From NCBI RefSeq assembly GCF_021134715.1, contig NC_060026.1, positions 682,001-746,000 of the forward strand: a DNA stretch of 64,000 bases, written 5' to 3'. The notes under the pieces were generated by a model that saw nothing but the letters and a program-made list of their open reading frames with translations, was not told the DNA's origin and searched no databases. This document shows, piece by piece, positions 10,958-52,166 of the stretch. The stretch comes from Daphnia pulex (lineage: Eukaryota > Arthropoda > Branchiopoda > Diplostraca > Daphniidae). The position numbers and the translations under genes were made by a program. How positions within the stretch are numbered: the stretch's first letter is position 1; each line of letters opens with the position of its first letter.

Positions 10958-12526
10958 ATGATGGCGAACTCTTTGACAATCTTTTCTTTCGTTAGTGTCA
11001 TCAGTCTGCTCTTGTTGTCCTGTTCCAGTCAGGCCACTAACCTAAACAACACCAGTGACTCTACAACGATCCAAGGTGAGTAGAAACGAGATATGTAATT
11101 GTTTTTTTATGTTATAATTAACGTTGCGTGTTTTGTTATGTCTTACAGGTGATGACGTGTCTGGCTCCCGCAGCGCCAGACAGTACATGATGCCTGGCCT
11201 GTTGATGAATTACCGACAGCATGCGCCATCGAACATTTTTGATCGATGGATTTATGCCCCATCCAACTTTGAACTGCCGACGGTCGCCGAATCTCCCAAC
11301 GTTGAATACGACGGCAGGAATCTGTTGGGTAAAGCCAAGTTTCAGATTGCCTGCGGCGGCGGACCTGCCGCACTCCCCCAACGGCAGATTGTCGGAATCG
11401 TAGGCGGAAGTCAAGCCGCCAAGAATTCGTGGCCTTTTGTCGTAAGTTGTTTTTTCTCATCTGGATTTCCTAAAACCTAATTTCATTGGTAAATGATCGC
11501 TGACAGGTGGCATTGATGGCTAATGGACAAGTGCTGTGCGGAGGATCATTGATTAGTCCGACCAAAATCCTCACGGCGGCGCATTGCGTCGAAAGGTGAG
11601 AAATAAAATCGAATAAGTTTAATTCATAGTTTGATGTGCGACTTGTTGTTTTGCTTGTTGTGCAGGATGTCTTTGTTTGAGATTTCTCTGTTGACTGTCC
11701 GTCTTGGAATGCACACGGTCGGGAACCAAGCGCTCAACACACGAAACGACGCCCAAGTGACAAGAAGGGTCTCTCGCGTGGTCTTTCACAACGATTACAA
11801 CGATGCAACTAGTGTAAATAATGAGTCACACCACAGCCTTTTTTCGTTTCACTTTAAATGTTCTTGAACCGATCCGTTTCATCGTTACTTTTCCAATTAG
11901 GCCAACGATATCGCCATTCTAACGATGGATAAGGCGGTGACTTATTCTTCGGTCATTTCTCCCGTTTGTTTGGGGTCGCCCAGTTCGAATGCCGACCAAT
12001 TCGCCGATAAGCAAGCGGCCGTCATGGGCTGGGGAAATTTGCAAGAGGGTAAAACAAAAATGAAAACATCGCAATTAATTGCTTCTGATGACGCTTTGTT
12101 AATGTTTAGGCGGAAATCCAGCGGATGTCCTTCAGCAAGTGACACTTCAAATCATTACCAACGCCAAATGCAAGGCTTCATTTCCAGATCTTTTGACGAC
12201 TATGCTCTGCGCTATTGCTCCAGGCAAAGACTCTTGCCAAGTACGTTTGATTCTTATTTCATCGAGTGGCAAGAAAAGACAAATATAATTATGTTTTATC
12301 AATTAGGGTGACAGTGGTGGCCCGTTAGTTGTTCAATCGGCCTCGGGAATTTGGACACAAGTTGGAATCGTCAGCTTTGGACGAGGTGATGATTTGAAAT
12401 CGTGTTAGTCAAGATTATTAATTAACACTTGGATCATTGATGAATGCAGGATGCGCTCAGCCAGATTTCCCCGGCGTTTACACCAGGGTTTCGGCGTTCA
12501 GGAGTTGGATTGATAAATTTGCTTAA
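10958..12526 (+). CDS. Trypsin-like serine protease, intact triad (360 aa)
   Basis: Exons 10958-11075, 11149-11441, 11507-11595, 11666-11813, 11901-12048, 12110-12240, 12307-12385, 12450-12526, the same architecture as the inactive neighbours. It has a signal peptide (MMANSLTIFSFVSVISLLLL) and a propeptide without the mucin-like linker. The triad is complete: His163 in LTAAHC, Asp219 in ANDIAI and Ser312 in GDSGGP. Asp306, six residues before the Ser, predicts cleavage after Arg/Lys, and the glycines expected of the specificity pocket are present (SFGRGC, PGVY). The activation region is odd: QRQIVG is followed at once by IVGGSQ, so the usual Arg does not touch IVGG. Likely an extracellular protease and the ancestral-type member of the cluster. 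Confidence 0.9.
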
Positions 12527-14823: not shown

Positions 14824-16610
14824 ATGATGTACGACCAAAGAGATTTTTCAACTATCACCTTGTTTGTGGTGGTGACTCTACTGGGCTGCTGCAATCCTGG
14901 CGCTAGTTCCTTCCTTCCCAAAGTCACCCGTACAGACGACGCCGTCATCATCGATTGTATTGCAAATTAATTACCTTTTTACAATTTAATTATTTGCTGT
15001 AAATCTAATACATTTCTAAACAAATTCAGTTGAGGGCTCGGAATATGCTGCTCCCATTCAAAGCAAGAACGTCTATGCCAATCCAGCCTTCGCTCCTCCT
15101 CAGCCATTTTTCAATCCTTACGCCATGATGTTCCAGCACCCACAGCAGATGATGTACAATGGATGGTCTTTCTTTTACGGACATCCTGGACGTAGTAACC
15201 CAGCAGGTGTCCCATCTACCAGGCAGTATGAGGAAGAAGAGGTCAAAGGAAAGCAAACAGTAGGACAGCAAATACAAATTTCAGGAGCGACGACAACAAC
15301 AGCCAAACCAACGACAACAACAACAAAAGCACCAGCACCCGCACCAGCACCAGCGATTCAGTGCGGCCGTGGACCGAACAGATTCCCCTACCATGATCAC
15401 GACCATGATCGGACAGCGATTAGCGAAAGGATTTCGCTTTCAAACGACGGGGACGAAACGGCAGTGGTCAAAGCCAAAAAGAATGCCTGGCCGTTCATGG
15501 TAAGTTGATTTATTTCTTACTTAAATCGCTGTTTACTATCGATACTCGTTTATGACGTTATTACACTACAATTATTTGATTACAGGTCACCCTGAAAAAT
15601 AGTAAAGGTGTCTTTTTTTGTGCTGCAACTTTGATTAGTGACACAAGAGTATTGCTGGCGGCTACGTGCTTGGAACAGTAATTTAAGATTTCATTCATGC
15701 ACTCGCATTTAATTGCACTAAAATCTATGTTTTCTTTTCTGGCATGCATAGGCTGTCTTTGGTTGACATGTCGGGTGTGACTCTGTTGTTTGGAGTGACG
15801 GGGCCAAACAAAATCCAAATGACGAGGCGAATCAGCAAACTTTATCTTCACAGCAAATACAATGCTGCCAACTACGTAAGTTAACAACTTAATCAGAACG
15901 CAACTTTATTTTTTATTTTTTTAAATATTTGATTCACTCCCATCTGCTTTTTATTAGGCCAATGATATCGCCATCATTATTTTGGACTCGCCAGTGGTTA
16001 TTTCCAGGAGTGTTGCACCTGCTTGTTTGCCACCGGCAAGTTCCGACCCCGACCAATACGCCGACAAAAAAGCCATTATTTTGGGATGGGGAACGGCAGG
16101 TAATAAAGGATCCCCAAAAATTATTATTGGTTAAGATGTAACATGCTTTTTCTTCATGTTCTATTCTAGACATCAATACCCCCAGCGAAAATTTGCTACA
16201 GGCCAAAGTTGACTTGGTGGCCAACTCCGAATGCAGGTCGGATTCTGACTTTGGAAGATATGTTTCCGACACGAGTCTCTGTGTTAGTTCTACGGACGTA
16301 TTCACATGCGCAGTAAGAAAATGATTCCCTCTTCATCGTACAGTTTTCACTTTTCAAGATAATTATTAAAATTAAAATCAATTTTAGGCTGACATTGGCG
16401 GCCCAGTGGTCAACCTCCCGGCACCAGGGACTTGGACCGTAATTGGAATCAACAGCTACACTCAGAGTAATTGTTTTAATCTAAGATATTTAGTTACAAT
16501 CAAATGACGGTTTTTTTTAAAATTGTCTCTCAACAGGTGACTGCAGTGCCACTGGCCTGAAAACCAGAGTGTCGGCGTATAGGGACTGGATCGACCAGTA
16601 CATGAAGTAA
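14824..16610 (+). CDS. Serine protease homolog 4 (inactive chymotrypsin fold, 418 aa)
   Basis: Exons 14824-14956, 15030-15499, 15586-15677, 15752-15875, 15958-16099, 16170-16312, 16388-16466, 16537-16610. It has a signal peptide and then a longer Pro/Tyr/Asn-rich N-terminal region (SEYAAPIQSKN...). Acidic residues, a Thr-rich run and PAPAPAP precede CGRGP. Thr228 stands at the catalytic His (LLAATC), Asp276 is kept, and ADIGGP has Ile371 for Ser. Intron 2 has a normal GT donor, unlike homologs 1 and 2. The segment from intron 2 to the stop is almost the same as in homolog 5, introns included. AATAAATATT lies near 16759. Confidence 0.88.
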
Positions 16611-19710: not shown

Positions 19711-21535
19711 ATGATGGGCGACCAAAGAGATTTAGCAAAAATCATCACCTTGTTTGCGGTGGTGACTCTACTGGGCTGCTGCAATCCTGTCGCCAGTTTC
19801 TTCCTTCCCAAAGTCACTCGCACCAATGACGCCGTCATCATCGATTGTAAGTCAAATGAATTCCTTAGTTTTTACAACGATTCAAATATTTGTAACTGTA
19901 ATCAATTTTTAAGTTTCAGTTAAGGGATCGGAATATGCTGCTCCCATTCAAAGCAAGAACGTCTTTGCTAATCCAGCCTTCGCTCCTCCTCAGCCATTTT
20001 TCAATCCTTACGCAATGATGTATAATGGATGGTCTTATTCTTTTGGATATCCTGGTCCCAGCGACCGTGCAGATACCCGTGAAGGTGTTCCATCTACCAG
20101 GCAGTTTGATGACGAAGAAGAAGAAGGCTTGAACGAGAAGCCGGTCATAAAACAAATACAAACAACAGCAAAGCCAACAACGACAGCGAAACCAACAGCA
20201 ACAACAGCAACACTAACGACAACAACAACAAAACCAACGACAACAACAACAAAACCAACGACAACAACAATAAAAACAACATCTACAGCCATTCAGTGCG
20301 GCCGTGGACCGACCAGATTCCCCCACAATGATAACGACCGTCGTCGGACATTAATTAGCGAAAGGATTTCGCTTTCATCAGGGGGAGACTCAACTGTAGT
20401 GGTCCAAGCCAAAAAGAACGCCTGGCCGTTCATGGTAAGTTGATTTATTTCTTACTTAAATCGCTGTTTACTATCAATACTCGTTTATGACGTTATTACA
20501 CTACAATCATTTGATTACAGGTCACCCTGAAAAATAGTAAAGGTGTCTTATTTTGTGCCGCAACTTTAATTAGCGACACGAGAGTATTGCTGGCGGCTCA
20601 GTGCATGGAACAGTAATTTAAAATTTCATTCATACACTCACATTTCATTGCACTAAAAATGTCTGACTTCTTTTCTGGCATGTATAGGCTGTCTTTGGTT
20701 GACATGTCGGGTGTAACTGTGTTGATTGGAGTGACGGGGCCAGCAAACATCCAAATGACGAGGAGAATCAGCAAACTTTATCTTCACAGCCAATACAATG
20801 CTGCTAACTACGTAAGTTTACAACTTAAACAGAACGCAACTCCTTTCTTATATTTAATTCACTCCCACCTGCTTTTGATTAGGCCAATGATATCGCCATC
20901 ATTATTTTGGACACGCCGGTGGTTATTTCCAGGAGTGTTGCACCTGCTTGTTTGCCACCGGCAAGTTCCGACCCCGACCAATACGCCGACAAAAAAGCCA
21001 TTATTTTGGGATGGGGAACGGAAGGTAATAATGGATCTCAAAAGTTATTTATTGGTTAAGATGCAACATGCCTTTTCTTTGTTCAATTCTAGACATCAAT
21101 ACCCCCAGCGAAAATCTGCTACAGGCCAAAGTTGACTTGGTGGCCAACTCCGAATGCAGGTCGGATTCTGACTTTGGAAGATATGTTTCCGACACGAGTC
21201 TCTGTGTTAGTTCTACGGACGTATTCACATGCGCAGTAAGAAAATGATTCCCTCTTCATCGTACAGTTTTCACTTTTCAAGATAATTATTAAAATTAAAA
21301 TCAATTTTAGGGTGACATTGGCGGCCCAGTGGTCAACCTCCCGGCACCAGGGACTTGGACCGTAATTGGAATCAACAGCTACACTCAGAGTGATTGTTTT
21401 AATCTAAGATATTTGGTTACAATCAAATGACGGGTGGGGTTTTTAAATTTTCTCTCAACAGGTGACTGCAGTGCCACTGGCCTGAAAACCAGAGTGTCGG
21501 CCTATAGGGACTGGATCGACCAGTACATGAAGTAA
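19711..21535 (+). CDS. Serine protease homolog 5 (inactive chymotrypsin fold, 434 aa)
   Basis: Exons 19711-19846, 19920-20434, 20521-20612, 20688-20811, 20883-21024, 21093-21235, 21311-21389, 21462-21535. The signal peptide is followed by a Pro/Asn-rich region and by the longest linker of the family, about 40 residues of mostly Thr with Lys, Pro and Ala. CGRGP and the chymotrypsin fold come next. Gln244 replaces His (LLAAQC), Asp292 is kept, and GDIGGP differs from an active site only by Ile387 for Ser. The Thr-rich linker is a likely O-glycosylation region (inference). Downstream of exon 2 it is nearly identical to homolog 4. The poly-A signal AATAAA is near 21690. Confidence 0.88.
20165..20290 (+). 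repeat. (ACA/CCA)-type coding microsatellite, Thr linker
   Basis: Runs of aca, acg, acc and caa triplets encode the poly-Thr linker of homolog 5. Shorter equivalents are at about 3330-3370, 7140-7190 and 15290-15355, where (CCAGCA)n codes for Pro-Ala. The linker length differs in every copy, which is expected if replication slippage sets it. Confidence 0.75.
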
Positions 21536-24034: not shown

Positions 24035-25231
24035 TCAGTTGTGATATATTTGCGGTTGGAAAATATCTTCTTGTAGTAGCCAGCCGTTGAAGTGAGTGAA
24101 CAACCCTCCGTATAGATACACTCCTGTTTCCATGGAGGAAATCTGTATCCAGACTTGATCGCCTTTGATCAAATTAAGCGTCGACTGGAGAGAAAACGTT
24201 TCGTATTGGTAATCGGCGCTCATTTCGTCTGCGTAACCGTAAGCGATTGAATTGTCGTTCAGGAAGAGACCGATAGTGAAAACCAGTCGAGTTGTCGTCG
24301 CCGGAATGTACGCCGTGCCCGAGAGCGAGAAAAAGTAGTTGCCCGTGACTGGGGCCGTGAATTTGCCCGATGTCAAATTCATGGCTTTTCCAACGTTGAG
24401 TCTTTCAATTTGAAATGGAACGGGAACGTTGATCTGAGTGAAAGACGAGCTCCTCTGCACGTAGAAGATAGCGGGCGATGATTTCATTTCAGTCGAGCCA
24501 ATGAATTGTTGGAAACCTGCGGGGTATGAATTTACAGTAACAAAGTTCATTTTAAAAGTGCTTAAATCAACTTTGTGGGTATTACCAGGATCGCTGGATT
24601 GCTTGGTAAAGTCGCAGTAGACACTTTCCACCATAGAAGCGCCTCTTACGGAATAGAACCCACTCAAACTGTGACCCATGGCATATAGATCTGCGCACGA
24701 AGTTGGCATTCCATTGCTAATTCTCGAATCATTTTTGACGTCAGATCTGTAATCAGAGACTGCTGCCGATTGCTTGTTTTGAAGGGCAGTCAAAAGCCGT
24801 TGTTGTTGTTGCACTTTGGACTCTAGCTCGGACACTTTGACTGACAAACCTTCTCTGATTTCATACTGATAGGAATATAGTAAGTAACTATGTCAGTTAC
24901 GTCATCACAGTTAATGAGGAAAAAAATTACGTAATAAAATTCAGATTTACTTGCTGTTGCATTTTTAGTTCGAGTGCCTCCAACCTCGCGTCTTTCATTT
25001 CCAGTTGGACAATTTTGTCTTGCAGAATTGATTTGATCTCGACCTTTTTTTTTACATCAACAAAGAAATCAATTTAAGTGAAATGGTAAATAAAAAGAAA
25101 GTATAGTTTGTTACATAATTATCAGTTAATTGTTGCAGTCGATCCTCCAAGGAAAGTCCATCGACCGAGTAAATGTTCCAAGCGCAAATGAGAAAAGTGA
25201 AAAAGGAACAAGTGAAAAAGTTGCTAGCCAT
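24035..25231 (-). CDS. C1q-domain secreted protein (346 aa)
   Basis: Minus-strand exons 25115-25231, 24951-25043 and 24035-24865. It starts with a hydrophobic signal (MASNFFTCSFFTFLICAW). Exons 1-3 then encode a leucine/glutamine-rich coiled coil (LEDRLQQL, KIVQLEMKDARLEALELK, SKVQQQQRLLTALQ). A short fibrinogen-like motif with two cysteines follows (SCADLYAMGHSLSGFYSV...YCDF). The C-terminal ~130 residues are a C1q jelly roll with the typical FTAPVTGNYFFSLSG, a run of alternating hydrophobic strands and an end FNGWLL. Such proteins form trimers through the coiled coil and bind ligands outside the cell, often in innate immunity. The specific ligand cannot be told. Confidence 0.9.
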
Positions 25232-45252: not shown

Positions 45253-47859
45253 TCAGCAACTGTCACCCACCTCGGCCACCTCCGCTGCAACTTCCCAAAC
45301 AACGATCTAAGTGTCAGACAGAGAACGGGATGTTAAATGTTTGAAATAAACGTTTCACTAATAATGATTCAGTTCATTAATTACCTTATCGTTTCGCGAG
45401 GAAAAAGTCAATTTATAAGTGGAATTCTCGGAGGACTCTGCGGACGACCCGTTAATGCACATCCACGACAAAGAAATTTTACAATCATGATGAGGTGAAG
45501 CAATTAATTTCGGTGTGGTGGAGAATACGGGTTTCCAAGTCTAATTTGTTGGGAAAGAATCATGAAGAAACGGTATTATCGGAATAAAAATGTTTTAAAA
45601 TCCAAATTACGTACTTCACTCAACCAGATGGTAATATTATATCGACTTGCTGAGGCGAGGTACCTCCCATCGGGTGAAAATGAGAGACAGGTTACTGAAC
45701 GCGAAGGCCCACGGAGAATTTTCGTTTTGTCCCTTTCCAAAGGATTCCAAATCCAGATCGATCCATCTGTACATCCACTGTAAAAATAAATAATGGGGTG
45801 ACAAAATCGAACGTCACATGTATATGTTTTCAAAAATAAAAACTCGCAATACGGTCTTATTGAACGGTTCAAGCACTGTGTCTGCTTGGACAGGACGGAA
45901 ATGTTAATAGATATTAGATAAAGATATACCAAGCAATAGCGAAGTTCTCTGGCATTTCCCTTGCCGAGTTGATTCCGCCATTGACCGTATTCCTAGCCGG
46001 AAGCCAAGCCAAACTAGAAAAACCGTGTTCAAATTTCTGGAAATAATCAGGTATTTTTGACGTGTTGCTTTTGCTGCTGCTCAATGACCAAATCTGTGCT
46101 TAAAACAACATCAAGTTTAAGAAGAAAAACAAAATTATTAAAGGAACGATAGTCTTAATTTAACCTAGGTTAAATTAAGAAGGAATAATTACCGTAATCC
46201 ATCCTTCTTTCCCACTTGAGGAAGACGCTAAATACTTTGTAACATTACTCCATTCGAGTCCTTTTATTGCACCCTTCAACAAGGAAAAATAACCACATTA
46301 AAAAAACCAATTAATTTCACCTAGGTAGAATTGTTACAACTCACCGTAATCCGTTTAATTATCTGCAACACTTGGAACTTGGATTCATTTTCGTCGATTT
46401 CCCAAATTTCTAAGAGGCCATTCATGAACCCGATAGCAATTTGATTTTTAGATGTCCACTCCACTTGTGAGATCCTCTTCTCATGTTCGATCGTGTAAAA
46501 CACGTTCGATTTTCCGTCGTGAGTGGTTGAGTTCCAAAACAAGACTTTTTTCGAACCCTGAATGAGAATTAAAGAGATTAAAATTGAAGACACGAAAACA
46601 CAAGTCATTACAGAAACTTTAAATTACTTTATCGAGAGTAGCAAAAATATTTGGCTTAACGGGGTTCCAGGCGATACGATAGACCCATTTGAAGTCGCAA
46701 TTCGTGTTTAGGAGAACGTCACCGGTTGGAAAACTGCTCCATACGATGACCGTATTATCTTTACAGCCAGCGGCCAATTGACTTCCGTCGAACTAGAAAA
46801 TAAATTAAGGTTAAAATTTAATATAAAATTTGTGTATAATAAGTGCTATCAAAATCGATATCTTTGACTCTCTTCTTTAGTGGCAAGTATAAATGAAACT
46901 CACATTCCACTCTAAAGTTGTTATTATTTTCAGTCCCTGCCCATCAAACGAAATTTCTTTCTCTGTCCATTCGGAAAACGGGACAGACACGTCTTCAGCA
47001 TTTAGTAGGAAAACTCGATTAAATCCGCACACAAGAACCGGTAGCGTCGGGTGGAATCGACTGACGCAATAATCAACTTCACTCATCAAGGCGATTGATC
47101 TTTGAACTTCCACAAATTGAACTAGGATTTGGAGAAGAAATTTTCGATTTAACTGTGAAGGGATAAACTGTGGACACAAAATTACAAACTTTTAAATCTG
47201 TATATACCTTTTTCTTGCTCATGTTCAGTAGAAGAAGGTACATCTTCACTCATTGTCAGCTCTTCATGGATATCATGTTGATCTTCACTACCTGAAAAAA
47301 TGTTTCACAATTTTGACTTTAATCTCTTACAGCAAAAGGGTCTTGAATTACAACATTATAACGATTAATGAATTACATTGTATAACTAAAAAGGTTGTCA
47401 TATTTTGAAGAATGAACTGTCAACTACCATAATAATTTTGAATGTGTGTTCAAGAATAAATATACAAGCTTAATAAGAGATACCTGGTAGTTTGTGCTCA
47501 TTGGTGAATGACTTATTTATCGATTCTGGATTGTTATTAGTTGCATTTCTTAATCGTGAACAAGTTCCTATCTCTGGAACTATCACTAGCACTGTAAATT
47601 TTTCAAGAAATAGCAGATATTCATTGCTAGTGATTTCGGTGCCATCTTCCTCAAAGACTGTTATAGGAACTTCAGAGCCAAAGCTGAAAAGTTGTCTAGC
47701 TAAAAACTCAGAAAAATGTTTGTCATTTACAACTGATTTTGCTAAATGTTGAACAAAACAATTACCTCTACCAGTCAGTTCATCGAGACTACCTGCTGTT
47801 ATCCCTTTTTTAGTTCGTCCATCTTGGCTGACGAGCTTATAGGGTTTTTGTTTTGTCAT
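45253..47859 (-). CDS. CIDE-N domain fused to WD40-like repeats (535 aa)
   Basis: Eleven minus-strand exons: 47766-47859, 47484-47699, 47208-47291, 46904-47121, 46628-46792, 46345-46557, 46193-46273, 45930-46093, 45615-45777, 45385-45540, 45253-45306; every phase fits. Residues 3-~75 are a CIDE-N domain: KPYKLVSQDGRTKKGITAGSLDEL, then VPITVFEEDGTEITSNEYLLFL, with the acidic EEDGTE patch that pairs with basic patches in DFF/CIDE complexes. Next come an acidic linker and then WD40-like blades (LAAGCKDNTVIVW, NQIAIGFMNGLLEIWEI, GCTDGSIWIWN, LASASRYNITIWL, IVVWEV). CIDE-N domains are known from the apoptotic nuclease CAD/DFF40, its inhibitor ICAD and the CIDE/DREP proteins. I do not know of one on a WD40 scaffold. 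Role unknown. Confidence 0.8.
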
Positions 47860-49937: not shown

Positions 49938-52166
49938 ATGAGTCCAATTAAAATTAAGGGCATCGGCAAAAGAACCTTGAAAAAAACGGAAGTAAGTTTG
50001 CAGAAGAAAACTTCTTCGTCCATCTTTTATTTTTAAAATAATTAGATTTTTTTAGTATAAACTCGTATCTCAACCCGTAAAAAAGTAGCTTATGAATTTC
50101 ATGTCGAAAAACAGGAAAAAAATGAATATGGCATTCTCCAACGCTTCAAAGAGATTGAAAAAGGCATCTGGGAAGGTGATCCACCCGACAAAGAGGACCC
50201 GACGAGGGTTTTTATAGACGGACTCATCAACATTATAAGCGAAATTCGCTATCCACCGAAGGGAAAGGGAAAAGAAGATGCCCAAAAAGAAGTAGAAAAT
50301 GCAAATGAATTGGTTGAGAAGGTTGAAGAATTGACTAGAGGAAAAATGATCGCAAAAGACAGCCGAAAGACGACCGCCGACATCGTGAAGGGATTGAAAA
50401 TCAAATCAGGCGATCCAGCTAAATTCGAAACGTTTTTCTGCTGTCTCCTGATGGCCGATTCTTTAGAACCGAAGAAGGGTGACGTTTTTTCCGGAGTTTT
50501 CAAGGTAAAACTACGCTTCAGAATATGAATTTGATTGACGACTGTAATAGTTTTACCAATTTCTGGATCGCAGAGTTGGGATCGGTTACAGAAGCTGGAC
50601 CAAGTTGGCGACACTGAATTGAAAAATTTCTTCAAGACAGAAACTGCTAAGATAGATCGAAAAGAACGGACGCAAAATGTAAAAAAAGGATTCCAAGGCA
50701 TGATTTCATTGATTTCTGAGGCCGGAAACGAAAATAAAGCCCTTGAAATGGGAACATTGCATAAATTTTGTGTAAATGAGGAAGCCATTCGAGATAAGTT
50801 TTATAAACTGTTCACAAACTGTCAGATCAAAAGACCAGACTTTACTCACTGTTACGTGAGCGTAAAAATAATCCTGTCGGAGTTCGTCAAAATCCTAGAA
50901 CATCACCTGCAATGGGAAGTTGAGGACGTCGAGAAGATGCTAAGAGTTTTCGGCCTTTCACCGCCATCATTTGAAACCGAAAATCAAAATGGGACCAATC
51001 GTCTTCAAAAACAACTTGCCAATTCATGGAACCAAGTCAAAAATAAACTCAACGATCCTGAAAAAGAATGGAAACAATTCACCGAGAGCCCCAAAGTGAC
51101 GACACCTGATGATGCGACAGACAGTAGCAGCAACCACGACCAAATTAAATGCCTTCAAATTAACCTGAATAGGAGCGAAAAAGCATGGGAAAATCTAATT
51201 CTTCAATGGTTAGCAAAAGAAAAAGTTGACGTTGTTTTCATTCAAGAACCGTATCTCAACAAAATCGGCAACGAACAAACTAACGACTGCTGCTACTACT
51301 TCCCCGGCCTACCCAAAAATTACCGGGCAGTTCATAACAATTACTTGATGGGCAAAGACAAAAAATCGAAATATGGTTACAGTGCGACCATACTTGTTCA
51401 CGTCGGCGTCAAATTCGAGCGCATCCTTCCGATGGCTGCACCAAGCGACAACTATCCGACAACATCGACAACTATCAGACAACATCCGCAAGAGCTGATG
51501 GTCGGCATCCGATTGACTGGAAATGGATGGGATGGTGTTACCTTGTTCTCCATCTACTGCCGGCCAAGTAGAAGTCTTCGATCGCTCTTGAAGCCATTGC
51601 GTTCGTTGGGCAATCACGACATGACGGTCCTCTGTATGGACGCCAACGCCACACATCCGAAGTGGAGTCCAAATTGGGAGGACAATGGTTTCTACTCGGG
51701 ACGGGGCGAAGACCTAGAAGATTTCCGAGCGTTTTGCGATCTCCAAGTGGCGAATAGAAATCTGGAGGACAGAAAGAAACCAATTAAAAAACAAGCCACA
51801 TCTAAAGAGAATGAAGGGGACACAAGCGATGAAGATAAACCAGAAACAAAAAACGATCTCGAGAAAAATTCTAAACACATTGACGTGACTCTTTACGGAA
51901 CTAAATTAAGCATCGATGATTGGGAGAGACTTAAAGACGAATCTTTATCTGACCATCGTTACATCACTTTTTCTATTAGAGTATGTTAAATCTTGATTTC
52001 CTTTATAATGTTAATCTCATTATAGACATTTCTTGCCATGTAGAATTACCCTGGCGAAAATTCAAAGAAATCGTCGACTCTTCTGAGCGCATTGGGTGGC
52101 GGAAGTATGTCCTGTTTTGGGAAAAAACCCAAAAGGCCATCAGTTGGACACCTCGCTGACCAATGA
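49938..52166 (+). CDS. Host-like gene with a LINE-type (R1-like) endonuclease domain (657 aa)
   Basis: Exons 49938-49991, 50115-50504, 50574-51980, 52044-52166; all introns are short GT-AG. The first ~390 residues are charged, helical and unrecognized. Residues ~395-615 form an exonuclease-endonuclease-phosphatase fold of the kind found in non-LTR retrotransposons: CLQINLNRSEKA (Asn), VDVVFIQEPYL (catalytic Glu), LFSIYCRPS, MDANATHPKW (Asp-x-Asn), HIDVTL and SDHRYITF (final Asp-His). A short basic tail follows (CFGKKPKRPS). No reverse transcriptase follows, and the frame is intact across four exons, so it looks like a captured (domesticated) endonuclease and not a dead LINE. The first acceptor (AAACAG) is weak. 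Confidence 0.75.

Follow-up and report, generated by a model that had tools for sequence, protein, structure and literature searches.

A CIDE-N domain joined to WD40 repeats in a Daphnia pulex gene whose relatives carry CIDE-N or kinase heads

A gene on the minus strand of Daphnia pulex contig NC_060026.1 encodes, in this order, a CIDE-N domain (the head), an acidic linker and a series of WD40 repeats (here called the chassis), and it is very probably a real single gene of unusual architecture. It lies in the 64,000-nucleotide stretch analysed here (positions 682,001 to 746,000 of the contig; hereafter the window, with positions counted from its first base). The reading we prefer, with a probability of about 0.55, is that of a single gene in which a CIDE-N head was captured onto a multiplied WD40 chassis and would dock by one side into the CAD/ICAD network.

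The gene model runs from 47859 to 45253 (-) and consists of eleven exons that are consistent in phase and have GT-AG borders; together they form a spliced open frame of 1,608 nt (535 amino acids). A sequence-only reading had claimed eleven phase-consistent exons over 45253-47859, and the same coordinates, borders and open frame were recovered here. Exon 1 (47766..47859) carries the start codon and the first half of the CIDE-N domain, and exon 2 (47484..47699) carries the second half (residues 4-72 in all) and the start of the linker. A donor for exon 1 at 47772 (533 amino acids) was tried and rejected, giving only 52.3 bits for CIDE-N and a first helix two residues shorter. The donor 6 nt downstream (47766/47765, GAG/gtaatt; phase 1) was chosen because of its higher CIDE-N score (59.7 bits) and because the length of helix 1 then matched that in an ICAD-like gene (L046) and in a tandem relative of the window gene (C10B). 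Intron 1 (47700..47765; 66 nt) is in frame and without a stop, so its retention could yield an isoform whose CIDE-N domain is longer by 22 residues. This intron occupies one position and phase in the window gene, L046, C10B and the neighbouring relative C10A, and it contains stops in the CIDE-N frame in all of these except the window gene. Exon 3 (47208..47291; 84 nt) encodes the acidic linker and is a possible cassette exon since it is in phase 1 on both sides; it is absent from the models of C10A and C10B. The WD40 chassis starts in exon 4 (46904..47121), with the heads of paralogs differing at the phase-1 boundary 5' of this exon, and continues through exons 5 (46628..46792), 6 (46345..46557), 7 (46193..46273), 8 (45930..46093), 9 (45615..45777) and 10 (45385..45540), the top-scoring repeat being in exon 9 (residues 428-461 of the 533-residue model). 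Exon 11 (45253..45306; 54 nt), the least certain of these minus-strand exons, encodes the last strand and the stop codon. The G+C content was 42% in exons compared to 28% in introns.

Both parts of the encoded protein passed their Pfam cut-offs. The CIDE-N domain (PF02017) was matched over profile positions 1-69 of 76 with 59.7 bits (E 3e-16; curated cut-off 23.5 bits), and the WD40 repeats (PF00400) reached 70.3 bits (cut-off 27 bits), with two stretches passing alone, over approximately residues 130-525 (about 400 residues). The repeats would be expected to close as a propeller. Among whole-propeller profiles, THOC3 and CDC20 scored best, yet far below their own cut-offs; the IFT140, WDR19 and ANAPC4 profiles passed their own, lower cut-offs. 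No nuclease, including the DFF40 nuclease domain (PF09230), was among the best 25 of 33 families in the Pfam scan of the window protein, which agrees with the earlier claim of a CIDE-N domain joined to WD40 repeats and no nuclease; the same library detected PF09230 in a CAD-like gene (L048) at 169.9 bits. CARD and the NB-ARC ATPase were likewise not among these best 25 of 33 families, CIDE-C was not among the families listed in the scan, and Pfam detected no LisH in the head. The C-terminal part is WD40 and not the ICAD C-terminal domain, a weak test because Pfam scored only CIDE-N in the ICAD-like L046 too.

The genome (133.2 Mb in 13 contigs) was searched for CIDE-N loci with the ICAD-like CIDE-N as query (E up to 1). 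Seven loci were found, and in three of the seven a phase-1 intron joins the CIDE-N domain to a WD40 chassis. The two besides the window gene, C10B and C10A, are tandem relatives at C10:504-510 kb, found with the window protein as genome query. In both, a CIDE-N domain with its intron at the window position (76.5 bits in C10B, 61.2 bits in C10A) is followed by WD40, the order and the phase of the joint being those of the window gene. The joint intron is 104 nt in C10B and 142 nt in C10A, and the corresponding gap between head and chassis in the window gene is 362 nt and contains exon 3. The frames are open up to the stop in the window copy and over the 461 aligned codons modelled (last exon left out) in C10A and C10B. 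The other four CIDE-N loci comprise L046, which we take to be ICAD-like from its CIDE-N domain and a presumed likeness of its C-terminal part; L048, which is CAD-like with CIDE-N and DFF40 domains; L047, which groups with DREP2 in the CIDE-N tree (support 87/88); and L049, which has no placement in that tree.

The chassis itself recurs at about 33 genomic places, of which contig C11 holds 25 (clustered from genome searches with the best candidates scored); a few of the 33 (C6, C7, C11:3.23 Mb) could be WD40 genes of another kind. Besides the window gene, 20 chassis models were built from these places (18 fetched loci and two of L026). Two of the 20 have a CIDE-N head (C10A, C10B), ten a kinase (L027, L030, L031, L033, L034, L037, L038, L039, L041, L042) and two an unclear head (L036, and L032, whose degenerate kinase lies far upstream); a head was not identified in the chassis models of L028, L029, L035, L040, L043 and L044. 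The chassis has six introns (phases 0,0,0,0,2,0). Eleven of the 20 other models have all six introns of the window gene, in phase and displaced by at most 4 codons; one of the six is altered in three further models, and one or more are missing in six. A scan of viral contigs returned two loci with WD40 at 24-25% identity, which were not used.

The kinase and WD40 parts of L027, L031, L033, L034, L039 and L041 are joined by a phase-1 intron of 48-82 nt, at the same point of the chassis as the CIDE-N heads. The joint in L037 is a phase-1 intron of 180 nt, and in L030 one exon holds both the end of the kinase and the start of the WD40 part. This suggests that a TBL1-like WD40 chassis carries interchangeable heads, because paralogs bear CIDE-N or kinase at the phase-1 joint or within one exon. 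The head of L033 (PF00069; 142.9 bits) is of a type that we take to be IRE1-like from the wording of its sequence. Degenerate-looking heads were observed in L037 and L038, the latter with a long joint, and L041 and L042 are decayed copies. In L038 (minus strand, oriented about 1850-2700) a long coiled-coil-like open frame lies between the degenerate kinase and the chassis, and this is possibly a third head type. Genome-wide, the kinase head gave 166 exon-level matches, many of them clustered on C3 (0.15-1.6 Mb), C11, C10 and C12; as the matches are exon-level they represent fewer genes, and those with the lowest scores may belong to other kinases. One of the kinase matches (C10:669860) lies 12 kb to the left of the window, and two tandem kinase matches were observed in some chassis genes. 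KEN RNase matches were limited to C1:1957 kb and C4:1983 kb.

CIDE-N was also sought by spliced alignment in the 18 other chassis loci, with 20 shuffles of one locus as the control. Best scores ranged from 31 to 45 compared to a shuffle maximum of 42. L032 (43), L036 (44), L043 (44.8) and L035 (45) were slightly above that maximum, with matches that do not form a CIDE-N domain; a CIDE-N head on L032 was ruled out, since only the first strand fits. C10B, the sole true head able to surface in this run, scored 108 to 379 depending on the query.

The CIDE-N domain of the window gene is nearest by path to that of L046 (60% identity over 68 columns, with the uncorrected first model). The CIDE-headed rows required two label changes in the CIDE-N tree, which is weak (75 columns), and the three such rows required one in the WD40 tree, where support was low as well (57/71; 62% of bootstraps). 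In the latter, from which L041 and L042 were left out, four of the 16 inner branches were starred and nine were open. The heads may stem from a single capture or from two.

The window gene is under selective constraint. The dN/dS of its WD40 part was 0.37 compared to L033 and 0.31 compared to L037, both with high dS, and dS was saturated compared to L028. For the CIDE-N domain, dN/dS was 0.51 between the window gene and C10B and 0.20 (dN 0.27, dS 1.34) between C10B and the ICAD-like gene, with dS saturated between the window gene and L046. C10A compared to C10B gave a bootstrap median of 0.69 (0.49-0.96). Head and WD40 parts were then compared across seven kinase or possibly kinase-headed loci together with C10A/C10B. 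L032 was excluded from the resulting 15 kinase pairs (L027, L030, L031, L033, L034, L039; models without stops), and dN/dS was higher in the WD40 part than in the kinase in 14 of these, the exception being L031/L039 (0.72 for WD40 and 0.73 for kinase). Among the four youngest (L031, L033, L034, L039), WD40 values were 0.68-0.98 and kinase values 0.49-0.73. The higher WD40 dN/dS in kinase-WD40 genes fits either diversification or relaxed constraint.

These data bear on two alternatives to docking into the CAD/ICAD network, both of which we hold to be possible yet rather unlikely. The CIDE-N and kinase heads on this chassis may make up lineage-specific intracellular sensors of infection or stress, in which the propeller would recognize a target and the head would oligomerize and signal. 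The number of chassis places and their concentration on C11, the many clustered kinase matches, the faster change of the WD40 part and the decayed copies L041 and L042 are all consistent with such sensors; however, fast change in young duplicates may reflect relaxed constraint, and the top WD40 dN/dS was 0.98, with none above 1. With the same low degree of credence, the window gene could be an ordinary TBL1-like WD40 duplicate that acquired a pair of CIDE-N exons and is drifting without a dedicated role. Daphnia genomes hold many duplicates, and the C10A/C10B ratio is high, but the frames are open in all three CIDE-N + WD40 copies with dN/dS below 1, and the low ratio between the CIDE-N domains of C10B and the ICAD-like gene argues against drift.

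The surface residues of the head give an indication of how it may bind. Contact residues of CIDE-N domains include K9, K18, K32 and R36 of DFF40 and D66, D71, D72 and D74 of DFF45, and the D62R change in DREP1 (the D72 position) abolishes homodimerization (excerpt of PMC5730196). The same two faces are described in the DREP3 filament (excerpt of PMC8647176), and the basic face of DREP4 is bound by DREP1 (excerpt of PMC8891305). By alignment reading, the window head has K, K and R at the positions of DFF40 K9, K18 and K32, and L at R36, as in L046; at DFF45 D66, D71, D72, D73 and D74 it has D, T, S, N and E. The sequence-only reading had held that the acidic face is kept, which stands for the EEDGTE motif, D66 and the Glu at D74 but not for D71, D72 and D73, where Thr, Ser and Asn are found. 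Its proposal that the head could polymerize with or dock to CAD/DREP proteins is accordingly divided: docking to CAD/DREP-type partners is plausible, whereas homopolymerization is less likely with T, S and N at D71-D73. In our view the head more probably docks to CIDE partners by one side than builds a homofilament, because the equivalents of D72 and D73 are Ser and Asn while the basic face appears intact. C10A has lost the basic residues (I, Q/H, L) and kept the acids at D72 and D73, and the faces of C10B are intermediate, with the acids at both of these positions kept.

The same residues make it improbable that the protein is a decoy or inhibitor of a CAD-like nuclease which replaces ICAD by capping CAD filaments. 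The window head is closest to the ICAD-like CIDE-N, and C10A and C10B retain the acids of the face used by ICAD, but the window copy has Ser/Asn there and continues with WD40 in place of any ICAD C-terminal part. Far less probable still is a pair of neighbouring genes, one for CIDE-N and one for WD40, that are not spliced together: the exon 2 frame does soon meet a stop if intron 2 is retained, but order, strand and in-phase joint are repeated at C10A and C10B, the fetched flanks of L046, L047, L048 and L049 gave no chassis match above 22 bits, and we regard two genes as ruled out by the order, strand and phase common to the three loci.

Under the preferred reading, a captured head that docks by one side, the CIDE-N exons of an ICAD-like gene would have been joined via a phase-1 intron to a WD40 chassis, which multiplied in the same genome, often bearing IRE1-like kinase heads. 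The predicted propeller would bind a partner or ligand, and the basic face of the head may dock onto the acidic face of CIDE-N domains of the ICAD-like or C10A type, its putative partners. Docking would link whatever the WD40 part binds to the apoptotic-DNase network of CAD/ICAD, or would alter how that network works.

The window protein resembles several known systems in part. It shares with ICAD/DFF45 (DREP1) the CIDE-N sequence and the position and phase of the CIDE-N intron, and differs in its WD40 continuation. With CAD/DFF40 (DREP4) it has in common a CIDE-N domain with basic-face residues but not, among its best-scoring families, the nuclease domain; with CIDEA/B/C it shares an N-terminal CIDE-N domain but has WD40 and no listed CIDE-C. 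When the PDB was searched with the chassis profile, TBL1XR1 gave the best match among long single stretches (E 8.5e-35, profile positions 61-328); the total scores of some repeat-rich WD40 chains were higher, and many other WD40 proteins were matched as well. The N-terminal domain of TBL1 is LisH, whereas the chassis heads here are CIDE-N or kinase. Apaf-1, also a PDB match to the chassis by WD40, is a cell-death protein with WD40 propellers; it differs in its CARD and NB-ARC ATPase. The IRE1-like kinase + WD40 genes of this genome share the chassis, intron positions and phase-1 joint and differ in having a protein kinase as the head.

A 2008 survey, available as an excerpt, assigned CIDE-N to Cide and Dff/Drep proteins (PMC2426694). 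No CIDE-N + WD40 protein was described in the literature searched, which lay mostly outside subscription journals and was represented in part by excerpts (PMC3091752 among the matches listed). No paper on a kinase-WD40 expansion in Daphnia was found in the literature searched; the HEPN family is expanded in Daphnia, and such expansions have been linked to defence (excerpt of PMC3710099, which names none of the proteins described here).

Several other features were observed in the window and the assembly. The window contains a C1q domain (24038-24892 (-); 54.7 bits), an endonuclease-reverse-transcriptase domain (50535-51986 (+); 53.4 bits) that is probably part of a LINE-type element, a trypsin-like open frame (11901-12308 (+); 25.9 bits) and a similar pair of open frames at 15020-15505 and 19913-20440 (+) (GSEYAAPIQSKNV..ANPAFAPPQPFFNPYAMM), a local duplication of which 15020-15505 (+) had no Pfam match. 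COX1 fragments on nuclear contigs (C4:8522513, C4:8537517, C11:6254056, C3:12924026) are probably nuclear copies of mitochondrial DNA. The mitochondrial contig (15,333 bases, with COX1) reads as the usual arthropod gene order over its first 9,000 bases, in which ARAGORN with the bacterial code reported no tRNA.

A CIDE-N domain on a WD40 propeller, in a family with kinases at that site, would give access to the CAD/ICAD switch by a new route, and the exchange of CIDE-N and kinase on one chassis would clearly exemplify exon shuffling among signalling heads. The large kinase-WD40 expansion in this model crustacean also becomes open to direct test. More speculatively, and in our view doubtfully, these genes may form a receptor-like family of Daphnia with a fast-evolving propeller, alternative heads joined at a phase-1 boundary (IRE1-like kinases or ICAD-derived CIDE-N domains) and complementary CIDE-N faces (basic in the window gene, acidic in C10A), wired into the apoptotic-DNase switch. 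If so, the family would be an arthropod analogue of NLR/Apaf-1 receptors in logic, not in descent.
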